Source: Hymenobacter nivis (lineage in GTDB: Bacteria > Bacteroidota > Bacteroidia > Cytophagales > Hymenobacteraceae). From it: a DNA stretch of 64,000 bases. A program made the translations under genes and the position numbers. The notes below the pieces were generated by a model. That model made no database searches and was not told the DNA's origin. It saw only the letters and a program-made list of their open reading frames with translations. The stretch spans positions 124,001 through 188,000 of the forward strand of contig NZ_RCYZ01000006.1 of assembly GCF_006439025.1 (NCBI RefSeq), in the 5' to 3' direction. Below, piece by piece: positions 37,220 through 40,387 of the stretch (positions are counted from its first letter, which is position 1; each line of letters opens with the position of its first letter).

Positions 37220-37261
37220 AAAAAAGGCCGTCATGCTTCGCTGCGCTCTGCATGACGGCCT
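37220..37261 (-). terminator. terminator of the kinase/flavoprotein operon
   Basis: On the minus strand a perfect 12-bp stem (AGGCCGTCATGC and its complement, 13-nt loop) is followed by TTTTT. The stem sequence CGTCATGC also occurs in the repeat near 53518. Confidence 0.85.
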
Positions 37262-37287: not shown

Positions 37288-38937
37288 CTACTCGTCCAAG
37301 TACTGGTGCACGAACTTGATGGCGGTGGAACCGTCGCCCACGGCGGCGGCCACCCGGGCCATGGCGCCGGCGCGGCCGTCGCCGGCGGCAAACACGCCGG
37401 GCACGCAGGTTTCGAGGGCGAAGGGCTCGCGCGGGCGCTTCCAGTTGGCAGCGTAGCGCGGGTCGGCCACCAGGTCGCGGCCGGTGAGCACAAAGCCTTT
37501 GGCGTCGCAGAGCACGGTGCCGCACACCCACTCGGTGCTGGGCTTGGCCCCGATGAACACGAACAGGGCCCGGGCGGGCCGCTCCTCGGTTTGCTCGCCC
37601 ACTTGCAGCACCACGGTTTCGAGGTGGCCGTCGCCGCGCACTTCCTTCACCTGGGCAAAGGGCAGGATTTCGATGTTTTCGGTGCCCGCAATCTGCTCGA
37701 TCAGGTACGCCGACATGCTGCTGGCCAGCGACTTGCTTCGGATGACGATGAATACCCGGCGGGCGTAGGTGGCCAGGTACATGGCCGCCTGCCCGGCCGA
37801 GTTGCCGCCGCCCACGATGTACACGTCCTGCTGGTCGCAGGAGCGGGCCTCGGTGCGGGCGGCCCCGTAGTACACGCCCGCCCCGCTGAGCGCGTCGATG
37901 CCCGGCACCTCCAGCTTGCGGTAGCTGACGCCGGTGGTGAGCACCACGGCGCGGGTGCGCACCTCGCTGCCACTGCTGAGGGTGAGCACTTTGTAGCCGT
38001 CCTGCACGCACAGGTTGGTCACTTCCTCGGCCAGGAACTCGGCGCCCAGGCGCACGGCCTGCGTCCAGGCGCGGTGGGCCAGCTCGGTGCCGCTCAGGCC
38101 GGTGGGAAAGCCCAGGTAGTTTTCGATGCGCGAGCTGGTGCCGGCCTGCCCGCCGGGGGCCTCGCGCTCAATCAGCAGCGTTTTTAGGCCCTCCGAGGCG
38201 CCGTACACGGCCGCGCCCAGGCCCGAGGGCCCCGCTCCGATGACGACCACGTCGTACAAATCGCCCGAGGGCTGCGTGGGCAGGCCCAGGTACTGGGTGA
38301 GTTCGGCGCGGGCGGGGCGGGCCACGGCGTGGCCGTCGGCGTACACCACCACGGGCAGGTCGGGGGCCCCAAACGCGGTGCTGGCCAGCAGCTGGGCCGC
38401 GGCGGGGTTGGTTTCAAAATCGAGCCACTCGAACGGCACCATGTAGCCGGCCAGGGCGCTCTTGACGGCGTGCGAGAGCGGCGACCACTGGAACCCGATG
38501 AGCCGCAAGCCCTGGAACACGGGCTTATGCTGGGCCTGCCAGGCCGCCAGCAGGTCGTGGAGCGTGGGGTAGAGCAGCTCCTGGGGCGGGTCCCAGGGCT
38601 TCATCAGGTAGTAGTCGATGCGGGCCCCGTTGATGGCCCGGATGGCGGCCTCGGTATCGGCGTAGGCGGTGAGCAGCACGCGCTTGGCGTCGGGGAACAG
38701 GGCCCGGGACTGCTCCAGCAGTTCCACGCCCTCCATGCCGGGCATGCGCTGGTCGGCCAGCAGCAGGGCCAAGGGCTCGGCGCGGGTTTGCAGCTGGCGC
38801 AGGATGTCCAGGGCCCCGGCGCCCGAGTCGGCCCGCAGCACGCGGTAGTCGCGGCGGAACTCGGCGCGCAGGTCGCGCTCAATGGCGTTGAGCACCTGCG
38901 GGTCGTCGTCGACGGCGAGGATAACAGGTTTTTTCAT
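37288..38937 (-). CDS. response regulator fused to a thioredoxin-reductase-like flavoprotein
   Basis: 549 residues. The REC domain (1-125) has Asp10-12, phospho-acceptor Asp62 (LADQRMPG), Thr90 and Lys113. Residues of about 140-230 look like a glutaredoxin/thioredoxin fold (LRLIGFQWSPLSHAVKSAL ... LPVVVYADGHAVARP), with WSPLSH where CPYC would be expected. From about 235 a thioredoxin-reductase-like part has VVVIGAGPSGLGAA, GGGNSAGQAAMYLA and the final FAAGDGR. The usual CxxC of thioredoxin reductase is missing; that region reads GVYYGAARTEARSCDQQ. It follows the kinase gene by 55 bp and is its probable partner. Classical disulfide reduction is unlikely; flavin signalling or NAD(P)H sensing is an inference. 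Confidence 0.88.
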   Translation of the reverse strand: MKKPVILAVDDDPQVLNAIERDLRAEFRRDYRVLRADSGAGALDILRQLQTRAEPLALLLADQRMPGMEGVELLEQSRALFPDAKRVLLTAYADTEAAIRAINGARIDYYLMKPWDPPQELLYPTLHDLLAAWQAQHKPVFQGLRLIGFQWSPLSHAVKSALAGYMVPFEWLDFETNPAAAQLLASTAFGAPDLPVVVYADGHAVARPARAELTQYLGLPTQPSGDLYDVVVIGAGPSGLGAAVYGASEGLKTLLIEREAPGGQAGTSSRIENYLGFPTGLSGTELAHRAWTQAVRLGAEFLAEEVTNLCVQDGYKVLTLSSGSEVRTRAVVLTTGVSYRKLEVPGIDALSGAGVYYGAARTEARSCDQQDVYIVGGGNSAGQAAMYLATYARRVFIVIRSKSLASSMSAYLIEQIAGTENIEILPFAQVKEVRGDGHLETVVLQVGEQTEERPARALFVFIGAKPSTEWVCGTVLCDAKGFVLTGRDLVADPRYAANWKRPREPFALETCVPGVFAAGDGRAGAMARVAAAVGDGSTAIKFVHQYLDE

Positions 38938-38992
38938 GCAGAAAGGCCGCGCATTGCCGGCCGGAAAGAATAAGGCAATAGAAGAGAAACGG

Positions 38993-40387
38993 CTACGCCA
39001 CCGGCAACCAGGCGCAAAATTCGGTGCCCTGGGGCCCCGACGTGACTTCGAGCCGGCCGCCGTGGTTTTGCACGATGCGCTGGGCAATGTCGAGGCCCAG
39101 GCCGGTGCCTTCGCCGGCCTGCTTGGTGGTGTAGAAGGGCTCGAAGATGTGAGGCAGCACGTCAGCCGGAATGCCGGGTCCGTCGTCGGCCACGCAAACT
39201 TGCACGAAGCCCGGCGCCAGGCGGGTGCGCAAGGTAAGGCCGCCGCCGGGGGGCAGCGCGTCCACGGCGTTGTCGATGAGGTTGGTCCACACCTGGTTGA
39301 GGCTGCTGACTTGGCCGCGCACCTGGGGCAGGCCGGGGGCGTACTCGCGGGTGAGGCGGATGTTTTTGGCCCGCAGCTGGTAGCCAAAAATGTTGAGCGT
39401 GCTCTCGAGCCCGGCCGCCACGTCGAGGGGCGCGAAGTCGCCGCCGCGGTCCATGTGCGAGTACGTTTTCACGTTGTCCACCAGCGTGCTGATGCGGCTG
39501 CTGGCCTCCTGCACGTCGCGCAGTAGCCCTTGGGTGCTCAGCTGCCCTTCGAGCCAGGCGAAGGCGGCGGGGCGGGCGGCGGGTGGCAGCAGCGCCGCCA
39601 CTTCTGCGAGGGCGGGGGCCCCCAGGCCGGCGGCGAGCAGGGTGCTGGCCAGCGCCGAGCCGTCGGGCACGGCCTGCGTCTCGAGCCAATCGGCCAGCTC
39701 GTCTTCCTGGTCGGCCCGGTCCAGCGCCGACGTGGCCGGGGCCCCGGCGGCCGCGGGCTGCGGGTGGGCCAGCAGCGTGAGGGCGTGCAGGGCCTCGGGG
39801 GCGGGGCAGTGGCTGGCCAGGGCCGAGAGCAGCTCGGGCTGGGCCGTGAGCCGGGCCCCCAGCGTGGCGGCGGCCCGGCTGATGGCGGCGGCGGGGTTGT
39901 TGAGCTCATGGGCCAGGCCAGCCGAGAGCTTGCCCAGGGCGCGCAGCTTCTCGTCGCGCTCCTGGCTGCGGGTTTGGTCGCGCACCCGGTCGCTCATCAG
40001 GCCCACCAGGCGCTGAATTAGGTCGGGGCTGGTGCGCTCCAGTTCGGGGAATAAGTCGCGGTGCAGCAGCAAGATGCGCGTTTCGCCCACGGCCACGCCC
40101 CGGCCGTTGATGGTGCGCAGCCGCGAGTAGGGCAGCACCCCGCTCACCTGCCCCGCCTCGATGCGAAACACGGGCTCGGCGTGGCCGCTGCGCTCGAAGT
40201 AGAACTGGATGCCGCCCGCCACCACCGCCATCATGTACTGGGCCGCGTCGCCGGCCTGCACCACGGTTTCGTCGGGGCCGTAGTGGCGGTCTTCGCCGTG
40301 GGCCAGCAGCCAGGCCAGGGTGTCGTCGGGCAGCCCGGCAAAGGCCGTGACGGTGGACAGTTCGGCGGCGGTGAGGGGCGTGGGCAT
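38993..40387 (-). CDS. cytoplasmic histidine kinase with a cyclic-nucleotide-binding-like domain
   Basis: 464 residues from ATG 40387. Residues 1-130 are a Crp/cNMP-binding-like beta barrel (DETVVQAGDAAQYMMAVVAGGIQFYF). HisKA follows with the phospho-acceptor in GLAHELNNPAAAI. An Ala/Pro-rich helical insert of about 120 residues separates this from the ATPase domain, which has NQVWTNLIDNAVDALPPGG (N box), ADDGPGIP (G1) and GEGTGLGLDIA (G2). No membrane span is seen, so the signal is internal. The cognate output is almost surely the REC-flavoprotein gene just downstream. Confidence 0.9.
   Translation of the reverse strand: MPTPLTAAELSTVTAFAGLPDDTLAWLLAHGEDRHYGPDETVVQAGDAAQYMMAVVAGGIQFYFERSGHAEPVFRIEAGQVSGVLPYSRLRTINGRGVAVGETRILLLHRDLFPELERTSPDLIQRLVGLMSDRVRDQTRSQERDEKLRALGKLSAGLAHELNNPAAAISRAAATLGARLTAQPELLSALASHCPAPEALHALTLLAHPQPAAAGAPATSALDRADQEDELADWLETQAVPDGSALASTLLAAGLGAPALAEVAALLPPAARPAAFAWLEGQLSTQGLLRDVQEASSRISTLVDNVKTYSHMDRGGDFAPLDVAAGLESTLNIFGYQLRAKNIRLTREYAPGLPQVRGQVSSLNQVWTNLIDNAVDALPPGGGLTLRTRLAPGFVQVCVADDGPGIPADVLPHIFEPFYTTKQAGEGTGLGLDIAQRIVQNHGGRLEVTSGPQGTEFCAWLPVA

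Follow-up and report, generated by a model that had tools for sequence, protein, structure and literature searches.

A histidine kinase paired with a receiver-linked, thioredoxin reductase-like flavoprotein that lacks both redox cysteine pairs in Hymenobacter nivis

Most response regulators act on DNA. What would a histidine kinase control when its neighbouring regulator is fused to a flavoprotein? This question was raised by two adjacent genes in a 64,000-nucleotide stretch of Hymenobacter nivis DNA (contig NZ_RCYZ01000006.1, positions 124,001 to 188,000; the window), in which a redox flavoprotein seems to be under the kinase's control. Both open reading frames were confirmed on the minus strand where the initial annotation had placed them (Table 1), with the kinase gene 55 bp upstream of the regulator gene. 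The regulator consists of a receiver (REC) domain, a glutaredoxin (Grx)-like domain and a thioredoxin reductase (TrxR)-like module, and it is probably a phosphorylation-controlled, non-thiol protein of NAD(P)H and flavin adenine dinucleotide (FAD), forming the output arm of a widespread two-component module. This reading starts from the gene pair, its domain make-up and the family-wide loss of both cysteine pairs; in addition, the cofactor and REC motifs are kept, the kinase linkage recurs, and a UBP zinc finger accompanies part of the family.

The extent of the cysteine loss was judged from 130 aligned flavoprotein relatives of five phyla, comprising 77 Hymenobacter, 41 other REC-bearing and 12 REC-less sequences. 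The sample was mostly of one genus, with a single genome scan giving the best 80 matches; it included the window's own protein (L001, among the 77) and the REC-less paralogue of the same genome (among the 12), while identical sequences (L085-L113) and matches that covered fewer than 370 query residues or ended before residue 500 were excluded before alignment. At the TrxR site, GAARTE stands in place of CxxCD and is one residue longer than it. Cysteine was found at neither of the two TrxR positions (G358 and T362 here) in any of the 130 relatives, and no CxxC occurred there; only two CxxC strings were present anywhere in the relatives' Grx or TrxR parts, both at another place. The Grx site was readable in 128 relatives, being outside the aligned part in REC-less L152 and L155, and none of the 128 had a cysteine pair in it. 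Instead of the CPxC or CPxS active site of catalytic glutaredoxins and thioredoxins, S152-P-L-S155 was found, with S152 in 118/118, S155 in 113/118 and H156 in 114/118 REC-bearing sequences; the site was looser in REC-less members (S152 in 7 of 10 readable). A conserved cysteine pair elsewhere in the protein, which the initial annotation had named as a finding that would overturn it, did not appear when all alignment columns were scanned. The initial claim that both redox sites are lost was thus borne out, with SPxS at one and GAARTE at the other, and needs correction in one respect: the loss is shared clade-wide, across five phyla, and is not confined to this Hymenobacter. A local mutation or sequencing error was rejected for the same reason.

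A cysteine-bearing relative, helpful for comparison, was found in the same phylum. It is a tandem Grx(CPDC)-Grx(CPDC)-TrxR(CATC) fusion (L196, G100:C1:1072189-1073337) which keeps W-C-P-D-C and C-A-T-C-D, and its W-C-P-D-C aligns to W-S-P-L-S, with Ser at both Cys positions. In the tree it groups with the cysteine-less family (support 1.0; the family itself, with 60 members, 0.855), and this placement is consistent with a joint loss of both pairs. The REC-bearing members were not monophyletic, since eight REC-less sequences fell among them at a node support of 0.0. The REC-less paralogue in this genome (L002 1480-2919, C18:470866-472113) is composed of a Grx-like domain and a cysteine-less TrxR-like module, and the gene adjoining it would, by its sequence, encode an old-yellow-enzyme-like reductase.

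The cofactor sites are kept. Pfam Pyr_redox_2 matched aa 228-536 (E 6e-32), and model residues 227-549 gave their best superposition on thioredoxin reductase 5mh4 (Z 30.9, 30% identity). The dinucleotide-binding motifs for FAD and NAD(P)H follow the order of TrxR, as in TrxB. The glycines of the FAD motif GxGxxG, the GGQ and the N-S-A of GGGNSA were each present in 130/130 relatives, and the FAD 'GD' in 129/130, the remaining sequence being cut by a contig end. Thus the dinucleotide-binding motifs do remain, as initially stated, and are almost invariant. E363 was retained in 128/130 (77/77 Hymenobacter, 41/41 other REC-bearing and 10/12 REC-less members). A pseudo-enzyme without redox turnover, which only binds NAD(P)H or FAD and acts, depending on phosphorylation, as a scaffold or sensor, would fit the absence of both catalytic pairs and the SPxS frozen in most REC-bearing members; it is unlikely, for E363 and the sites for FAD and pyridine nucleotide have been kept across five phyla in a way that does not resemble drift, although ligand sensing alone would likewise conserve the binding sites. 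Membership of three known families was rejected: TrxB, as the redox-active CxxC was absent and NCBIfam TIGR01292 (thioredoxin-disulfide reductase) scored 212.8 bits against a cut-off of 343.45; AhpF, as TIGR03140 scored 130.3 against 502.9 bits and the N-terminal CxxC was absent; and the bacillithiol disulfide reductase YpdA, as TIGR04018 scored 59.7 against 339.9 bits.

A single cysteine, C367, lies five residues past the second lost Cys position. It is common and not universal, occurring in 77/77 Hymenobacter, 28/41 other REC-bearing and 9/12 REC-less members; it is replaced by F, Y, V, T or S in 13/41 and by T in 3/12, and it has no conserved partner. C310, C472, C477 and C511 are also common in Hymenobacter, but not elsewhere in the family. 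The TrxR fold, the frequency and position of C367 and the DsbA-like or trxA genes that adjoin some loci could be taken to mean that thiol-disulfide reduction persists, by way of C367 or of cysteines in a partner, which is very unlikely given the replacement of C367 in those members and the absence of a conserved pair. Because the gene is paired with a kinase, both cysteine pairs are absent and the dinucleotide-binding motifs are kept, the output is unlikely to be disulfide reduction or transcription, and in this the initial annotation is supported.

In the REC domain, D10, D11, D62, T90 and K113 were present in all 77 Hymenobacter and all 41 other REC-bearing sequences, so that the retention of Asp62, Thr90 and Lys113 noted at first holds for 118/118. 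For the segment between REC and the TrxR-like module, the Pfam Glutaredoxin match (aa 153-201) was below threshold (16.9 bits, cut-off 22.9). In the predicted model of the 549-aa protein (mean per-residue confidence, pLDDT, 83.9), the strands and helices of residues 144-217 follow each other as in a Trx/Grx domain, which would fit the Trx/Grx fold that the initial annotation wished to see tested for residues 140-230; the fold searches were confined almost wholly to residues 224-549.

The neighbourhoods of 122 loci were compared over about 5 kb on each side, some stretches being shorter: 77 in Hymenobacter (L186 and L041 being the same contig), 35 in other Bacteroidota and 10 on plasmids of two Nostoc, Gloeothece, Deinococcus, Streptomyces, Tsukamurella, Nonomuraea, Nocardia, Caballeronia and Paraburkholderia. 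Eleven plasmid records covered at least 80% of the query, and the eleventh (H15/L205, 37% identity) was kept out of the count. The same architecture thus occurs in Bacteroidota and, plasmid-borne, in Cyanobacteriota, Deinococcota, Actinomycetota and Pseudomonadota. A kinase gene was found within 5 kb, in either gene order, in 117/122 loci (76/77 Hymenobacter, 31/35 other Bacteroidota, 10/10 plasmid). A chance neighbour was therefore rejected, and the matched pair proposed initially is borne out; homologues never linked to the kinase, the other finding that had been named against it, did not appear. The nearest relatives were proteins of H. coccineus and H. caeli (96% and 95% identity). In four Hymenobacter loci (L056, L060, L065, L066) an opposite-strand gene that resembles those of REP-associated/Y1-type transposases separates kinase and regulator, and L066 additionally carries an integrase-like gene.

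The kinase matched HATPase_c (E 4.7e-27), and HisKA (24.8 bits, cut-off 26.9) and cNMP_binding (23.5, cut-off 27.5) were both just below cut-off. H160 of the H-box was present in 113/113 aligned kinases, so the H-box His and the HATPase_c domain of a histidine kinase were both found. The model (pLDDT 82.8, predicted template-modelling score 0.45) showed a beta-roll, a long DHp helix (121-191), inserted helices (197-264), a second DHp helix (269-310) and the ATPase domain. The helical insert of about 100 residues in the DHp hairpin (aa ~192-268) had no Pfam family at E up to 1, and the columns over kinase aa 190-290 hold 96-110 residues in 39/39 non-Hymenobacter kinases; the insert may be where the unusual regulator docks. 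The cyclic-nucleotide cassette was placed by eye against CAP. With that placement, its Glu (GE position) was found in 0/74 Hymenobacter and 3/39 other kinases, and no conserved Arg was seen at aa 92-99; G-x-L-P-Y-S-R stands in its place, with P86 in 74/74 and 33/39 and R89 in 74/74 and 29/39, respectively. Since the conserved phosphate-binding Glu and Arg are absent, cyclic nucleotide binding by the sensor seems doubtful. In this respect the cNMP-binding-like sensor of the initial annotation needs correction.

From these observations we infer phosphotransfer, gating, cofactor content, non-thiol chemistry and partner control. The soluble kinase would sense a cytosolic signal through its CRP-like domain, which is without the usual cyclic-nucleotide cassette, autophosphorylate on H160 and pass the phosphate to D62 of REC, and REC phosphorylation would gate the FAD- and NAD(P)H-binding TrxR-like module. 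With SPxS in place of CPxC and GAARTE in place of CxxCD, the reduced flavin would have no dithiol through which to send its electrons. Hydride could then be transferred directly from the flavin to a non-thiol acceptor in the pocket once occupied by CxxC, where the conserved E363 stands as the catalytic acid of TrxR does; or it could be held, the protein reporting the NAD(P)H/redox state by changing partners. The Grx-like domain would probably serve for docking. The clade-wide frozen SPxS and GAxxTE direct attention to such non-thiol acceptors or to partner binding.

Candidate partners were sought among the linked genes. A gene for a small UBP zinc finger was found within 5 kb in 15/35 other Bacteroidota, 3/10 plasmid and 4/77 Hymenobacter loci. 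The four Hymenobacter loci (L069, L070, L071, L073) have the order UBP, kinase, short-chain dehydrogenase, regulator, and in L069 a degraded kinase accompanies an intact regulator. Among 296 Bacteroidota genomes, 45 had the flavoprotein family (E up to 1e-70, with no more than four candidates scored in each genome), 31 had zf-UBP over cut-off and 28 had both; the 2x2 table, compiled by hand, was 28/17/3/248 (Fisher 3e-24, for genomes that are not independent). LRxCxxCGxxxCCDxS was present in 54/54 distinct bacterial UBP fingers collected, and CGRY/F, the eukaryotic ubiquitin-tail motif, in 0/54. Other loci have a one-component version, in which a CRP-like domain is joined directly to this Grx-like and TrxR-like core. 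REC-less CRP-like relatives adjoin UBP, trxA, clpB and cbpM on Rhodococcus, Streptomyces and Nocardia plasmids, and six other REC-less plasmid loci (L151, L152, L154, L155, L207, L208) had no UBP or kinase match. Genes of LtrA-family membrane proteins recur near the module (L144, L145, L201; Nostoc and Deinococcus plasmids). The pair looks like a conserved redox-signalling module with relatives in several phyla, not a one-off.

Cation/proton antiporters are the second candidate. Full-length matches were found in 11/35 other-Bacteroidota loci, 8 unfused and 3 fused to a UBP finger, with one further match of 67 residues only (L194). Pfam Na_H_Exchanger and TrkA_N were confirmed on L168, L178 and L187 and on L179 and L182; in L179, L182 and L184 (the last by sequence only) the finger forms the C-terminus of the Na_H_Exchanger-TrkA_N protein. 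In L168 and L159 the genes of antiporter, DsbA-like protein, UBP, kinase and regulator follow each other on one strand, and in Tsukamurella an S-(hydroxymethyl)mycothiol dehydrogenase gene follows the module. The flavoprotein and a UBP adaptor might control such CPA2-like antiporters via their KTN (TrkA_N) domains, as KefF does for KefC, and so give a fast redox or electrophile response under two-component control. KefF is an ancillary oxidoreductase of KefC with quinone reductase activity and is required for full Kef activation (PMC10224563), a parallel that is suggestive only. With a guessed chance rate of ~0.6% (27 genes in 10 genomes, hand-picked, some for this linkage), the binomial value of the linkage is 1e-16, which is overstated because seven of the eight unfused antiporters belong to one family (f41). 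The search that gave these matches turned up none in the window, in any of the 77 Hymenobacter loci or in the 10 plasmid loci, and genome G142 has an open reading frame sized like the UBP-antiporter fusions without a close REC-TrxR regulator. Its zf-UBP (G142:C15:127899-128093) lies inside a 719-aa open reading frame, and the finger-antiporter fusion may work without the regulator. Antiporter control is a minority hypothesis and, as a Kef-type gate, rather unlikely; distinctly unlikely is the fuller version in which the phosphorylated output, a thiol-free NAD(P)H flavoprotein, would switch Kef-like antiporters via a UBP adaptor, with a CRP-like-fused one-component form elsewhere.

Several points weigh against the preferred reading of a phosphorylation-controlled non-thiol flavoprotein within a wider module. 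It was built on sequence, model and neighbourhood data, and linkage alone does not prove phosphotransfer. No kinase was found in the stretches examined of L080, L157 and L170; the kinase is cut by the stretch end in L181, in two pieces in L040 and, as mentioned, degraded in L069; and the uncounted plasmid relative L205 had no kinase or UBP gene in 11.4 kb. (In L205, 5001-6527 of a Streptomyces sp. NBC_01001 plasmid, the N-terminal part is divergent and the TrxR site is without CxxC.) The model is without cofactor, and loops 264-269 and 523-530 are below pLDDT 50. The HRR-type NADPH motif is altered, likewise in this genome's TrxB (L003), so that either NADH or NADPH might be used, and a one-cysteine reaction via C367 might still take place in part of the family. 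As for the wider module, the zinc finger accompanies only those four Hymenobacter loci; zf-UBP over cut-off is absent in 17/45 flavoprotein-bearing genomes, and the flavoprotein family is absent in 3/31 zf-UBP genomes (G100, G142, G342) and in G015 of the first survey.

Downstream of the pair, a hairpin with a run of T (Table 1) folds at -26.9 kcal/mol (z -4.8, equalled by 0/200 shuffles) and is likely the end of a two-gene unit; a pattern scan with a loop limit of 8 omitted it, its loop being 13 bases. The promoter scan found none and is uninformative for this phylum.

Table 1. Coordinates of the kinase-flavoprotein pair and associated features in the window
Feature	Position	Strand	Basis or remark
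REC - Grx-like - TrxR-like flavoprotein gene, 549 aa + stop	37288..38937	-	open reading frame, Pfam, predicted model, fold match
REC receiver domain, aa 6-118, phospho-acceptor D62	38584..38922	-	Pfam PF00072 Response_reg, E 3e-16
Grx/Trx-like domain, aa 144-217	38287..38508	-	predicted model; W-S-P-L-S-H (aa 151-156) replaces CPxC site
TrxR-like FAD/NAD(P)H module, aa 227-549 + stop	37288..38259	-	GxGPxG and GGGNSA retained
G358-A-A-R-T362-E363, position of TrxR CxxCD	37849..37866	-	alignment with canonical TrxBs
Linked histidine kinase gene, 464 aa + stop	38993..40387	-	open reading frame, Pfam, predicted model, relatives' alignment, neighbourhoods
Kinase architecture: CRP-like beta-roll, DHp with H160, ~100-residue insert in DHp hairpin, HATPase_c	38993..40387	-	
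12-bp hairpin and run of T	37220..37261	-	26 bp past stop codon of flavoprotein gene

Burroughs, Iyer and Aravind reportedly predicted in 2011 a bacterial ZF-UBP cyclic nucleotide-dependent redox signaling system. The TrxR-like flavoprotein, the cNMP-like or REC input, the kinase and the UBP neighbours found here resemble it, but the UBP genes of this genome (C12, C18) lie on other contigs than the pair (C20). Low-Mr TrxB shares the FAD and NAD(P)H domains; compared with it, the window protein is without CxxC, has the REC and Grx-like domains added, and is ~18 residues longer just ahead of the C-terminal FAD motif, with conserved W499, R503 and P505. On some plasmids REC-less members are annotated as 'thioredoxin-disulfide reductase', although the cysteines that such an enzyme requires are in no member examined. 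The Grx-TrxR fusion L196 and AhpF also have a Trx/Grx-fold domain ahead of the TrxR module, from which the window protein differs by the absence of both cysteine pairs and the addition of REC. YpdA/Bdr and the TrxR-type FNR (7a76, 8c16), which are without CxxC, share the TrxR fold (Z ~25) and superpose worse than true TrxRs. KefF and KefG differ in fold from the TrxR-like module. They are soluble oxidoreductases encoded beside a KTN antiporter (PMC10224563), a likeness in a candidate way of working only, and have no two-component input. REC-thioredoxin reductase response regulators have already been published as a 'Mycobacterium-like combination' (PMC5847659); they share REC and a TrxR-like enzyme with the window protein, and the passages concerned name the architecture only, without cysteine state or partner genes. 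Searches of open-licence papers listed none that describes this family's cysteine loss. The 'candidate new signalling system' of the initial annotation is therefore not supported as to newness, the architecture being present in five phyla, REC-TrxR fusions being in print and the wider ZF-UBP/TrxR module having reportedly been predicted in 2011; the pair, the cysteine loss and the kept motifs stand. In other genomes the pair is joined by DsbA-like genes and by the zinc finger and antiporter genes, the latter two being concrete candidate partners. The pair is a member of a known and, as far as the searches show, uncharacterised kind, to which the clade-wide frozen cysteine loss at both sites and the doubt over cyclic nucleotide sensing are added here.

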